A stretch of 64,000 nt of DNA from Fundicoccus culcitae. Its GTDB lineage: Bacteria; Bacillota; Bacilli; Lactobacillales; Aerococcaceae. The notes beneath the pieces were generated by a model. The model was not told where the DNA came from, ran no database searches, and worked only from the letters and a program-made list of their open reading frames with translations. The translations under genes were made by a program, and so were the position numbers. The stretch lies in NCBI RefSeq assembly GCF_024661895.1, contig NZ_CP102453.1, forward strand, positions 1,860,001 through 1,924,000. The letters are read 5' to 3'. Position 1 is the stretch's first letter. Every line of letters begins with the position of its first letter. Below, one piece after another: positions 19,342 through 62,758 of the stretch.

Positions 19342-20139
19342 TTAGGCTAATAACATGGCATCAGATGTAACATCTGATCCACTTTGTTGTTTAAACATTT
19401 CAATCAGTTCGACAACGGTGAGGTTTTTCTTTTCTTCTCCGCTAACATCAAGGATAATTTGCCCTTGGTGAAGCATGATTAAACGATTGCCGTAGCGGAT
19501 AGCGTCTGCCATATTGTGTGTAATCATTAAGGCGGTTAATTTTTCTTCGCCGATGATTTTTTCAGTTAACGCTAGGACCATTTCACTTGTTTTTGGATCT
19601 AGGGCTGCCGTGTGTTCATCGAGCAATAATAATTCGGGACGTAATAAGGTTGCCATTAATAAGGTCAAGGCTTGTCTTTGACCTCCAGAAAGATAAGCCA
19701 CTTCCATGGTCAAGCGATCTTCAAGCCCTAAGCCTAGTCGGGACAGTTGATCTCGCATCATTTGCAAATCATCTTTTTGAACACCCCGGCGTAAGGAGCG
19801 TTTGTGACCACGGCGGTTAGCAATGGCCATATTTTCTTTGATGGTTAAACGAGAGGCTGTTCCCATTTTAGGATCCTGGAAAACATAGGAAACCAGTCCG
19901 GCACGTTTACTATTTGACCAGTTAGTCACATCAATACCAGCAATCTCAACACTGCCGATATCTGGTTGTAGTGCCCCAGAAATACAGTTTAGTAAGGTAG
20001 ACTTACCCGCACCATTCCCTCCAATTAAAGTAACCACTTCGCCGGCTTCTAAATTTAGATTAATGCCTTTTAATACATGGTTTTCATTGACAGTTCCAGC
20101 CTCGAAGGTTTTATGAATGTTTTTCAATTGTAATTGCAT
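19342..20139 (-). CDS. ABC importer ATP-binding protein (amino-acid/aromatic type, TrpZ-like)
   Basis: The 265-residue ATPase has Walker A GGNGAGKST, a Q-loop with YVFQDPKMGT, signature YLSGGQRQAL and Walker B LLLLDEHTAALDP; the family has His after the catalytic Glu as here (DEHTAALD). It is the third part of a PF04392/PF02653-type importer with the permease and the two binding proteins upstream. In streptococci the matching system is linked to tryptophan. The leader peptide upstream points to tyrosine/phenylalanine here, which is inference. Confidence 0.88.
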   Translation of the reverse strand: MQLQLKNIHKTFEAGTVNENHVLKGINLNLEAGEVVTLIGGNGAGKSTLLNCISGALQPDIGSVEIAGIDVTNWSNSKRAGLVSYVFQDPKMGTASRLTIKENMAIANRRGHKRSLRRGVQKDDLQMMRDQLSRLGLGLEDRLTMEVAYLSGGQRQALTLLMATLLRPELLLLDEHTAALDPKTSEMVLALTEKIIGEEKLTALMITHNMADAIRYGNRLIMLHQGQIILDVSGEEKKNLTVVELIEMFKQQSGSDVTSDAMLLA

Positions 20140-21051
20140 TTATTTACCTCCACTCAGCTGACCGTTGCGACGGTATTTATTTAAATGTTTTTTCATCTCT
20201 GGTAAGTAAAGCACAAACCCTAGAAGAATGGCAGAGAACAGTTTGATATCATAAGGTTCCACTTTGAAAAAGCGTTGGTTTAGAATTAAATCAATAATAA
20301 TACGATAAATAAAACTACCTACAACAAGACTTGATAAACGAATACCTAGCGGCTGATTAGGGATAACCACTTCAGCAATAATTAAGGAGGACATTCCAAT
20401 AACCATGGTCCCTGTCCCCATTCCGATATCCGCAAAGCCATCTTTTTGGGCAATTAGGGAACCCGATAGGGCAATTAAACCATTCCCAATCATATAGGCG
20501 AGTGTTTTCATGTTATCGGTATTTATTCCGTTGGCTTGACTCATTTGTTCATTATCACCTGTCGAGCGTAAGGCCAAACCAATTTCAGTATGTAAAAAGG
20601 CATTTAACACAACCACGATTATCGCAACTATAATAAGTGAAACAATAATCACGGGGATATTTCTACCTAAATTTAAATAATCAGTTAACCCTTTAAAAAT
20701 GGTGTTAGATCCAATTAAGGCAATATTAGGTCTCCCCATTACATGCATATTAATCGTATACAAACCAGTTAGGACTAAAATCCCAGTGAGTAGTGGAGGT
20801 ATTTTCATCTTGGTGTGAATTAAGCCTGCTACCATCCCAGCCAGACTACCGGCAAAGAATGAGGCAACTGTCGCAATTAATGGATTTACGTCATTGGTAA
20901 TCATAATCGCACTAACGGCAGCTCCTAAAGGGAAAACTGCTTCGGCTGACATATCGGCTATATTCAGTAAACGATAGGTGATGTAAACGCCAATTGCCAT
21001 AATAGCCCAGACACAACCTTGGGCTAAACTTGAAATAATAATGTCTAACAT
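20140..21051 (-). CDS. ABC importer permease (TrpY-like)
   Basis: The 303-residue protein has eight or nine membrane helices and the branched-chain-amino-acid/ribose permease pattern (PF02653): GVYITYRLLNIADMSAEAVFPLGAAV, GLALRSTGDNEQMSQANGI with the EAA-like loop, and a basic C-terminus. It directly abuts the ATPase gene. Only one permease gene is present, so it must act as a homodimer. Confidence 0.88.
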   Translation of the reverse strand: MLDIIISSLAQGCVWAIMAIGVYITYRLLNIADMSAEAVFPLGAAVSAIMITNDVNPLIATVASFFAGSLAGMVAGLIHTKMKIPPLLTGILVLTGLYTINMHVMGRPNIALIGSNTIFKGLTDYLNLGRNIPVIIVSLIIVAIIVVVLNAFLHTEIGLALRSTGDNEQMSQANGINTDNMKTLAYMIGNGLIALSGSLIAQKDGFADIGMGTGTMVIGMSSLIIAEVVIPNQPLGIRLSSLVVGSFIYRIIIDLILNQRFFKVEPYDIKLFSAILLGFVLYLPEMKKHLNKYRRNGQLSGGK

Positions 21052-21083: not shown

Positions 21084-22067
21084 TTATTGAATCGATTCAG
21101 GATCAATGCCTAATGCTTCTGCAAAATCTGGGTTAACAATAACTTGATGGTTTTCAGCTAATTCAACGGGCATTTCAGCTGGATCAAGTTCTTCCGTTAA
21201 CATACGAATAACCATATTAGCGGTTTGAATACCGTAATCTTCGTATGAGTTAGACAAAGTAGCTAAACCATTTGTCATAACGACTGAATCAGACGAACCA
21301 ATTGTTGGAATACCTGCTTCTTTAGCCATGTCCCCAACCAGTGCAATCGAGCTATCAATGGTATTATCCGTTACCATGAACATAGCTTCCACTTGTGAAG
21401 TTAATGAATTCATTACTTGAGCAATGTCATTAGTGTTTGTTACTGTTCCGACATGCGTTGTTAAACCACGGGCTTCTAATTCTTCAACAGCCAGTTCAAC
21501 TAAAACAACGGAATTCACTTCACTAGAATTATATATCAAACCAACGTTTTCTACATCAGGAAAATTACGAATTAATAAATCGACTTGTTCTGCAATAGGA
21601 GCCATGTCACTTGTACCCGTCACATTGGTGTTTGGTTCTTCTAAAGATTCAACCAAACCAGCTTCAACCGGATCCGTTACCGCTGCAATAAATATCGGTT
21701 TTTCCGTTTCAACCACAGCTAAAGATTGAGCAGCGGGTGTTGCAATCGCAAATAAAATATCGTTGTCACGTGCTATTTTTTCAGAAATAGATTGTAAGTT
21801 GGCTTGGTCACCATTACCGTTTTGGATATCCCAAACAATGCGATCACCAAATTCAGAAGCATTTAAAGTATCTTCAAAGCCTTTTAAAACCGCATCTAAC
21901 GCTTCATGTTCAACATATTGTAGAACACCAATATGAATCGGTTCAGCTGAATCATCTTGTGCCAAAGTCGTAACAGGGCTAACTAAGGCTAATACTAATG
22001 ATAACACCATTGCAACGATAACATTAAATCGACTAATTGTTTTTTTCATAATTTTAATTCTCCTCAT
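21084..22067 (-). CDS. ABC transporter substrate-binding protein (second of a tandem pair)
   Basis: The 327-residue protein has a signal peptide ending TTLAQ with no lipobox Cys, and a PF04392 binding domain beginning IHIGVLQYVEHEALDAV. Internal motifs include LFAIATPAAQSLAV, AAVTDPVEAGLVESLEEPNTNVTGTSD and VGLIYNSSEVNS. It overlaps the upstream paralogue by 14 bp. Best start may be the third in-frame ATG (MKKTISRF) near 22049, which has GAGGAGAATTAAA before it. It should bind the solute outside the cell and deliver it to the permease. Confidence 0.87.
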   Translation of the reverse strand: MRRIKIMKKTISRFNVIVAMVLSLVLALVSPVTTLAQDDSAEPIHIGVLQYVEHEALDAVLKGFEDTLNASEFGDRIVWDIQNGNGDQANLQSISEKIARDNDILFAIATPAAQSLAVVETEKPIFIAAVTDPVEAGLVESLEEPNTNVTGTSDMAPIAEQVDLLIRNFPDVENVGLIYNSSEVNSVVLVELAVEELEARGLTTHVGTVTNTNDIAQVMNSLTSQVEAMFMVTDNTIDSSIALVGDMAKEAGIPTIGSSDSVVMTNGLATLSNSYEDYGIQTANMVIRMLTEELDPAEMPVELAENHQVIVNPDFAEALGIDPESIQ

Positions 22068-23055
22068 CTTTTATGTCTAATTGTAAATTTGCTGGGTCAA
22101 TGCCTAAAGCTTCAGCGACATCTTCATTAACAACTAACTCTAAATTCGCAGCTGACTCTACCGGGATTTCACTGGCAGTCACACCTTCTTCAATTTGGCG
22201 AGATAACATTCTAGCTGTTTGTTTACCTAATTCAAAATAATCTAAACCATAAGTGGCTAAACCATTTTCTAAAATCATATCTTTAGATCCACCAACTAAG
22301 GGTAAACCGGCTTCTTTAGCTAGATCACCAACTAGGGGCATAGCACTCGCAATCGTATTGTCTGTTACTAAGAAAACAGCATCTACTTGCGTAGCTAAAG
22401 CAGCCATCACTTGACTAATATCATTCGTAGACGTTACGGTATGGTGGCTAACTTCCACCCCTTTTTCAACTAAGACTGCTTCAGCACGTTCTGCTTCACT
22501 CACTGAGTTGGGTTCACCAGAATTATACAAAATACCTACGTTTTGAATATCTTCTTTAGTTTGTAACAATAACTCAACTTGTTCAGCAATCGGAGCCGCA
22601 TCAATTGTACCTGTCACATTTTGTTCTTTATCCACTAAATCATCTACCAATCCAGCACCAACTGGGTCTGTTACCGATGAAAAGTAGATAGGTGTGTCAA
22701 CCGCAGCATTTACCAGCGATTGCGCTACGGGTGTCGCAATACCAAAAACAAAATCACTTGAATTTAGTAAGTTCTCACTCATCGACTGTAAATTCGCATT
22801 ATCAGCTGCCGCATTTAAATAGTTAATCGTAAGGTTTTCACCTTCAATGTATCCTTCTTCTTCTAACCCTGCGATGAAGCCTTCACGGTTAGCATCTAAT
22901 GAATCATGCTCCACATATTGTAAAATTCCAACATTGATAGCTTCTTTTTCCTGAGCACTAACCGAGCCAGTAGATAAGACAACCGACGCTCCCAACAAGG
23001 GTAAAACCGCTAACGCAACACTCATTTTTTTCCAATATCGACCTATTTCATTCAT
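22054..23055 (-). CDS. ABC transporter substrate-binding protein (first of a tandem pair)
   Basis: This 333-residue paralogue has the same order of motifs (INVGILQYVEHDSLDANREGF, FVFGIATPVAQSLV, SVTDPVGAGLVDDL, VGILYNSGEPNS) and also lacks a lipobox Cys after its signal peptide (VSAQ). Two binding proteins for one permease usually widen or sharpen ligand range. It is the first structural gene, with a TAGGAGGATAAA ribosome site, and lies 340 bp after the transcription start of an attenuator-like leader. Confidence 0.88.
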   Translation of the reverse strand: MNEIGRYWKKMSVALAVLPLLGASVVLSTGSVSAQEKEAINVGILQYVEHDSLDANREGFIAGLEEEGYIEGENLTINYLNAAADNANLQSMSENLLNSSDFVFGIATPVAQSLVNAAVDTPIYFSSVTDPVGAGLVDDLVDKEQNVTGTIDAAPIAEQVELLLQTKEDIQNVGILYNSGEPNSVSEAERAEAVLVEKGVEVSHHTVTSTNDISQVMAALATQVDAVFLVTDNTIASAMPLVGDLAKEAGLPLVGGSKDMILENGLATYGLDYFELGKQTARMLSRQIEEGVTASEIPVESAANLELVVNEDVAEALGIDPANLQLDIKDEEN

Positions 23056-23105: not shown

Positions 23106-23147
23106 ACAAAAAGACCGACTTAGATAAAAATCTAAATCGGTCTTTGT
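23106..23147 (-). terminator. Leader terminator of the ABC importer operon
   Basis: On the minus strand AAAGACCGA-TTTAGAT pairs with ATCTAAG-TCGGTCTTT around a short T-rich loop and is followed by TTTTTGTTT. It lies about 55 bp before the first gene. The 5' arm and loop (TAGATTTTTATC, 23123-23134) is an exact 12-nt complement of GATAAAAATCTA at 23200-23211, so formation of the terminator can compete with an upstream pairing. Confidence 0.85.
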
Positions 23148-23179
23148 ATATATAGCGCAAAAAAATTTACAATATGCGC

Positions 23180-23354
23180 GACTTTTACAAATCCTGCTAT
23201 AGATTTTTATCATCTATGCAGGCATGGTTAATTACACAGCTCTTCATAGATACAAACTTTCGTTTTGGTGTTTGTATCTAAGATTAAGACACAAACACTA
23301 TCTAAAATAGCTGTAAAAGTATCGTTTAGCTTGTAATAAATCATTTGTTCGCAT
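23180..23354 (-). promoter_or_regulatory. Peptide-leader attenuator with competing RNA pairings
   Basis: Minus-strand leader. GTGTTTGTGTC (23288-23298), which overlaps the leader-peptide stop, can pair with GATACAAACAC (23269-23279). The same segment can instead pair over 11 bp with GTTTGTATCTA (23247-23257). A third hairpin (CCTGC..GCAGG, 23193-23222) carries the 12-nt complement of the terminator. The Tyr-Phe-Tyr codon stretch ACTTTTACA (23312-23320) is also an exact complement of TGTAAAAGT at 23181-23189. Mutually exclusive stems plus an aromatic peptide fit ribosome-mediated attenuation. No T-box sequence was seen. Confidence 0.65.
23298..23354 (-). CDS. 18-residue Tyr/Phe-rich leader peptide
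   Basis: An ATG at 23354 has AAGGGG seven bases before it and opens MRTNDLLQAKRYFYSYFR followed by TAG. Five of the six residues between the two late arginines are Tyr or Phe. It lies about 40 nt after a predicted transcription start and before the competing hairpins, as expected for an attenuator peptide sensing charged tRNA-Tyr/tRNA-Phe. It is too short for ordinary gene finding, so the support is position, ribosome site and codon content. Confidence 0.65.
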   Translation of the reverse strand: MRTNDLLQAKRYFYSYFR

Positions 23355-23394
23355 ATCGGTTACCCCTTAAATAGGAATTATTTTTTATTCGATG

Positions 23395-23437
23395 TGTCTA
23401 TTCTAATTAAGAAAGAGAATTAAGTCAAGCGAAAATG
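23395..23437 (-). promoter_or_regulatory. Promoter of the attenuator-controlled ABC importer operon
   Basis: Minus-strand TTGACT, a 17-bp spacer and TAGAAT form a near-consensus vegetative promoter. The start should fall near 23395, giving a leader of about 340 nt. The remaining 23438-23511 stretch, before the SanA-like gene stop, shows nothing clear. Confidence 0.8.
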
Positions 23438-62577: not shown

Positions 62578-62613
62578 TCAAACAAGCAAAAAAGCTTGAT
62601 TGATACTATTCCA

Positions 62614-62691
62614 CCCACATCCCTACGTAAGTCCTAACTTAATCAGGTTTAAAGAGTCCGGTTTCCCATCTCAGCCTATTGGCACCCCTTG
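62614..62691 (-). ncRNA. TPP riboswitch (THI element)
   Basis: Minus strand shows all conserved blocks in order: GGGGTGCC, AGGCTGAGATGGG, AACCTGATTAAG and ACGTAGGGA. These are the thiamine pyrophosphate riboswitch signatures. It lies about 85 nt before a hairpin that masks the ribosome site, so control is likely at translation. Confidence 0.94.
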
Positions 62692-62758
62692 TGTGTAAAT
62701 ATATCATATCAAATAAGTACAACGATTACAAACCCCAAAGCACTCCAAATGTCTCTTT

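Follow-up and report, generated by a model that had tools for sequence, protein, structure and literature searches.

Upstream of an ABC importer operon in the window, as we call the whole 64-kb stretch of DNA analysed here, lies a minus-strand leader of 338 nt that extends from a promoter at 23428-23400 to the importer's first gene (start 23055), and the question raised by this locus is which signal the leader reads and how it conveys that signal to the operon. A preliminary description of the sequence had put the leader at ~340 nt and interpreted it as a Tyr/Phe leader-peptide attenuator, a reading that is supported by the retention of the open reading frame (ORF), its Shine-Dalgarno (SD) site, the sensor codons, and the alternative helices across many genera. 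We conclude that the leader is very probably a ribosome-mediated transcription attenuator that senses a shortage of charged tRNA-Tyr/Phe and switches on an aromatic amino-acid ABC importer. The preliminary description missed the wider scale of the system: the leader belongs to a class found throughout the order, in which Trp and Ile/Leu/Val versions also occur.

Architecture of the leader and its operon

The features of the leader and the operon, all on the minus strand, are as follows.

23400-23428 (-): sigma-70 promoter TTGACT-17-TAGAAT, 10/12 consensus matches
23363-23368 (-): SD site AAGGGG of the leader ORF, from sequence
23298-23354 (-): leader peptide ORF of 18 codons, MRTNDLLQAKRYFYSYFR; ATG at 23354, stop TAG at 23300-23298; contains the sensor codons Tyr12, Phe13, Tyr14, (Ser15), Tyr16, and Phe17
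23299-23315 (-): codon arm TACAGCTATTTTAGATA, forming P1 with C plus the adjoining 3' flank if no ribosome covers the arm (covariation, swap test)
23285-23298 (-): arm A, overlapping the stop codon; partner B (masked folding, swap test)
23267-23280 (-): arm B TAGATACAAACACC; partner A or C (masked folding, swap test)
23236-23257 (-): arm C, with the near-invariant core GTTTGTATCTATG and an AGCTGT flank; alternative partners the codons/stop, B, or D5
23208-23222 (-): arm D5 CCTGCATAGATGATA; partner D3, or C as the first antiterminator step (masked folding, swap test)
23193-23206 (-): arm D3 AAATCTATAGCAGG; partner D5, or the terminator 5' arm as the antiterminator relay (masked folding, swap test)
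23110-23145 (-): intrinsic terminator hairpin, then a U-run (terminator search)
22054-23055 (-): ABC substrate-binding protein, PF04392, TrpX-like (296 bits, under the TrpX equivalog cut-off of 390)
21084-22067 (-): second PF04392 substrate-binding protein of the operon (profile search)
20140-21051 (-): ABC permease, PF02653 (profile search)
19342-20139 (-): ABC ATPase, PF00005 (profile search)

The near-consensus promoter, the 18-codon ORF with its AAGGGG site and RYFYSYFR C-terminus, and the terminator hairpin following the alternative helices (23145-23110) were found as first described, as was the exact 12-nt complement between an upstream hairpin (23211-23200) and the terminator (23134-23123). 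The proposal that a segment overlapping the stop codon competes with C for B was borne out for both A:B and B:C, the latter involving the C core (23257-23247), with the position of B needing a correction of one base. The antiterminator had been ascribed to this 12-nt complement, but a conserved step had been overlooked in which C (23257-23245) pairs with D5 (23222-23208) and thereby frees D3 to pair with the terminator 5' arm. Overall, the leader folds with a z of -8.7 against dinucleotide shuffles.

The absence of a T-box, also part of the preliminary description, was upheld. No Rfam family, T-box included, matched the leader at gathering score, and T-boxes were absent both from the gathering-score matches of the whole window and from the matches to the leader with E values as high as 10, on which grounds a T-box or known riboswitch at this position was rejected. 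The sole gathering-score match in the window was a TPP riboswitch at 62603-62699 (-).

Against the TrpX model (NF041285), the PF04392 proteins of the window score 296 and 283 bits and do not reach the cut-off of 390 bits, which a PF04392 protein behind a Trp leader at a sibling locus exceeds with 452 bits.

Distribution and the match of sensor codons to genes

Blast recovered relatives of the leader elsewhere in its own genome, and a recurring layout was seen upstream of the relatives' PF04392 genes: a short ORF with an aromatic run at its end, Ser mid-run, and Arg last, followed by GTTTGTATCTATG, a CATAGAT hairpin, and a terminator. A covariance model (R1) made four strong matches in the window's genome. 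Of the 395 genomes sampled from the order, it detected the element in 276, representing 63 of 80 genera with at most 7 copies per genome; in a sample of the class, the element was nearly confined to the order Lactobacillales. Named carriers include Streptococcus suis, S. oralis, S. parasanguinis, Trichococcus, Desemzia, Alkalibacterium, and Lapidilactobacillus. When searched against the 64-kb window, a held-out model (R2) made from 25 leaders of other bacterial families, with no sequence of the window's family (Aerococcaceae), scored the leader at 79.7 bits with an E value of 9.7e-16, against 0.29 for the match ranked second.

Class analysis was performed on 187 distinct elements, leaving out two weak lone matches with a doubtful link to the class (L202, a Na/Pi symporter, and L223). 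A leader ORF is present in 169 of the 187 (167 with ATG), and 159 of these 169 combine an ATG start with an SD match of at least 4; a few weak matches (L195, L198, L216) have no convincing leader ORF. A QLNN-like stretch, often encoded by CTG AAT AAT, stands ahead of the sensor codons in both Phe/Tyr and Trp leaders from more than one family (e.g., L079, L110, L164) and may represent shared ancestry or an RNA feature.

Leaders were labelled as Trp, Phe/Tyr, or Ile/Leu/Val by a simple residue count near the peptide end. The Phe/Tyr leaders precede aroE, aroF (DAHP synthase), pheA (prephenate dehydratase), class I aminotransferases, aromatic importers, SBP_bac_3 importers, and a fusion of an MFS transporter with chorismate mutase; Trp leaders (WQ.W.R) precede trpB and TrpX; and Ile/Leu/Val leaders (IIISIIIR) precede livJ and branched-chain importers, ilvA (threonine ammonia-lyase), ilvB, and ilvE. 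Codon class equalled pathway in all 36 genes of clear pathway (0 of 100,000 permutations): aroE had Phe/Tyr leaders in 16 of 16 cases, livJ/ilvA/ilvB/ilvE had Ile/Leu/Val leaders in 11 of 11, and trpB had Trp leaders in 3 of 3. The four copies in the window's genome comprise Phe/Tyr leaders ahead of the present PF04392 importer and an SBP_bac_3 importer (L003), a Leu/Ile leader ahead of a LivJ-type importer (L002), and a Trp leader ahead of a third PF04392 protein (L037, MFNFTLTLGRWQSWHR).

The PF04392 importers have either Phe/Tyr or Trp leaders, and the protein tree is split almost perfectly between them: over 117 proteins, 2 changes between Trp and Phe/Tyr leaders were observed versus 34.5 expected by shuffling, one of the 2 falling on a misidentified row, L149, whose protein is in fact a permease. 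We infer that Phe/Tyr are the substrates of those PF04392 importers that stand behind Phe/Tyr leaders. Leader codons would accordingly be predictors of substrate, as many TrpX-like importers have Phe/Tyr leaders and probably import Phe/Tyr. In S. suis, trpXYZ is under T-box control (PMC9382623), and genomes of this species bear a Phe/Tyr leader ahead of a PF04392 protein.

The following genes also stand behind Phe or Phe/Tyr leaders. The unusual fusion of an MFS transporter with a type II chorismate mutase domain (L213, L215, L218; gene L213:431-1897), with leader YYFGFYYFR, perhaps moves an aromatic precursor; a D-lactate-dehydrogenase-like 2-hydroxyacid dehydrogenase (L071:403-1398, -) behind FFNSNFR, a Phe leader, may have phenylpyruvate as its substrate; and a DASS-type anion symporter (L187:928-2412, -) behind the leader VYFSYFR may have an aromatic pathway acid as its substrate.

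Alternative helices and the position of the ribosome

The helices were evaluated with a swap test in which the arms of seven helices were exchanged among leaders of the same class, with 300 permutations for each. Across all leaders, native pairs beat every permutation for P1 (z -11), A:B (-17), B:C (-14), C:D5 (-8.6), D5:D3 (-23), D3:T5 (-22), and T5:T3; within the Trp class, P1 was without support beyond TAGATA:TATCTA (50 of 300 permutations as good). Changes in the codons are compensated in the opposing arm, with TTT accompanied by GCTAAA or GCTAGA, TAC by GCTGTN, and ATC by GAT, and with AGC:GCT (99) varying to GGC:GCC (6). The covariation-based alignment of relatives' leaders that the preliminary description had proposed likewise supported the helices: in the held-out alignment, 96.5% of pair cells were standard, and covariation by all measures exceeded that of all 500 shuffles and of all slid versions. 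The outcome that would have refuted the preliminary reading, an ORF or Tyr/Phe codons without conservation and a known riboswitch or T-box matching the site, was not obtained: ORF and codons are conserved among relatives, and neither a riboswitch nor a T-box family scores above threshold there.

The classes differ in their 3' portions. In the Trp class, 35 of 48 leaders have a T-run immediately after hairpin D, which is therefore itself a terminator there, and a separate terminator stands after D in most Phe/Tyr leaders and all Ile/Leu/Val leaders.

The preliminary description had also pointed to the Tyr-Phe-Tyr codons as an exact 9-nt complement of 23189-23181. This complement exists in the sequence but is not conserved (23 of 300 permutations as good among 109 Phe/Tyr leaders), so it is due to chance or is local, and we rejected it as a functional helix. 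The codons pair instead with the stretch immediately 3' of C.

In equilibrium folding of the complete transcript of the window leader, the terminator is always favoured, which makes full-length folding uninformative and implies that the switch must be kinetic; we therefore folded truncated transcripts with the ribosome footprint masked, a procedure that yields equilibria on prefixes and not kinetics. With the ribosome absent, the codons pair with C (P1). When the A-site is placed on Tyr12, Phe13, or Tyr14, A pairs with B, C takes D5 once D5 has been transcribed (~10 expected pairs), and D3 then pairs with the terminator 5' arm once this is transcribed, most strongly for the stall at Tyr14; if the prefix stops immediately 3' of D3, hairpin D is a strong competitor of C:D5. 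With the A-site on Arg18 or the stop codon, B:C is formed, D is closed, and the terminator is free. These three states recur over the 169 leaders and three footprint sizes (+9 to +15). The stall positions that switch the fold lie ~-8 to -3 codons before the stop, overlapping with the positions of the cognate residues (-7 to -2), which peak where stalls switch.

Comparison and folding together establish the leader ORF, the codon-gene match, the helices, and their mutual exclusivity. Three marks of an attenuator are found here: a short ORF with its own SD site, codons for the downstream pathway, and antiterminator and terminator helices that exclude one another and have cross-species support; a fourth, a translation-dependent rise in expression under amino-acid scarcity, is predicted. 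Ribosome stalling and the response to starvation enter the proposed mechanism as its predicted steps. In a ribosome-free leader, the Tyr/Phe codon region and stop would pair with C, D and the terminator would fold, and the operon would be off. When aromatic amino acids are plentiful, the ribosome would reach the stop codon and cover A, B would pair with C, and D and the terminator would again fold, keeping the operon off. A ribosome stalled on the aromatic codons would cover the codon arm and leave A free, so A would pair with B and C would be freed; C would then capture D5, releasing D3 to pair with the terminator 5' arm and turn the operon on. In the Trp version, where hairpin D is usually the terminator itself, the switch would operate with no relay.

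Catalogued RNAs and known attenuators

Two catalogued RNAs overlap with the element. The window leader scores 23.8 bits against RF04312 (gathering cut-off 59) and 44.7 bits against RF02863 (E 3.6e-6; gathering cut-off 61), under the cut-off in both cases, but a second copy in the window's genome passes that of RF02863 with 70.0 bits, and Trp-leader siblings elsewhere pass that of RF04312 at the same sites. Searches of 40 genomes with both families gave matches largely at element sites, RF04312 mostly on Trp leaders and RF02863 on Phe/Tyr and some Ile/Leu/Val leaders. RF04312 also matched where R1 found nothing (G038:C1:617212-617324; G108:C1:1970194 and 1344006), and these sites are candidates for further Trp-type elements or a divergent subtype. 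Judged by these matches, RF04312 appears to be the Trp form of the element and RF02863 its Phe/Tyr or Ile/Leu/Val form.

RF04312 is the trpB motif (SRC-39-1), for which Narunsky et al. 2024 collected >900 examples, located ahead of trpB and of an uncharacterised ABC transporter for amino acids; they proposed it as a strong candidate for a riboswitch of unknown ligand, a classic attenuator being left open (PMC11109978). Like the element, the motif spans B, C, D, and the terminator, with an antiterminator in C; the accessible portion of its description contains no leader peptide, codon switch, codon P1, or Phe/Tyr or Ile/Leu/Val forms (PMC11109978). A metabolite-binding riboswitch, in which a ligand stabilises P1 and sets the terminator, would be in keeping with the covarying hairpins, antiterminator, and downstream amino-acid genes reported for the motif in that portion (PMC11109978) and with the Trp-type siblings above the RF04312 threshold. 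However, it leaves a conserved ORF with gene-matched codons unexplained, the most conserved bases are those of the three alternative pairings rather than of a pocket, and aroE, trpB, and livJ cannot share one ligand; we consider this explanation highly improbable. Equally hard to credit is a nascent-peptide arrest leader of the erm or cat kind, in which an antibiotic or metabolite would be the inducer and YFSYFR would arrest the ribosome. The C-terminal Phe/Tyr-Ser-Tyr-Phe-Arg is strongly conserved in one class, yet the same scaffold bears WQNWRR or IIISIIIR depending on the gene, the downstream genes serve amino-acid synthesis and uptake and not resistance, and part of the conservation is accounted for by the base pairs that the AGC and AGA codons form in the RNA.

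RF02863 is sRNA_2410 of Enterococcus faecium, reported as a 195-nt transcript, with two transcripts on a Northern blot (Sinel et al. 2017, PMC5593968), and classed as a small RNA, for which the accessible part of that report gives neither a leader peptide nor attenuation. That the locus encodes a free-standing trans-acting small RNA, as the Rfam class, the reported E. faecium transcript of a related locus (PMC5593968), and the window's 44.7 bits might suggest, is the least probable explanation, because the strong matches examined sit on the same strand upstream of an amino-acid gene with an ORF and a terminator, though the terminated product could possibly also act in trans. In the open-access literature, we found no mention of the peptide endings and no follow-up of the trpB motif, on which later subscription papers are possible.

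For the leader-peptide attenuator as a class, we think it likely that one ancestral leader, which senses the ribosome through exchangeable codons and so forms a translated counterpart to the T-box, is a main regulator of how bacteria of this order take up and make aromatic and branched-chain amino acids. It would distinguish an absent, a stalled, and a finished ribosome, would use a two-hairpin relay in its Phe/Tyr and Ile/Leu/Val forms, and would resolve both the trpB motif and sRNA_2410. The main gain is the identity of these two catalogued RNAs, joined as one element, by which a published orphan riboswitch candidate and a catalogued small RNA would acquire a definite, testable mechanism. 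Bacteria usually regarded as T-box users would also use a modular attenuator, its specificity changed by a codon swap in a fixed slot. Like the T-box in the same bacteria, the element serves different amino-acid operons from a single scaffold in which codon-like triplets set the specificity; unlike the T-box, of which it shows no match, it would sense via a translated ORF.

Leader-peptide attenuation itself is already known. In the classical attenuators of the enterobacterial trp, phe, his, and ilv operons, a ribosome stalled at regulatory codons selects the antiterminator among alternative helices ahead of an intrinsic terminator, and the element would resemble them in all of these respects. 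It differs in that one scaffold is common to Phe/Tyr, Trp, and Ile/Leu/Val operons, in that the sensor codons themselves pair with C as a ribosome-free off switch, and in its second-hairpin relay; the scaffold, the codon swapping, the ribosome-free off state, and the relay are what is new.
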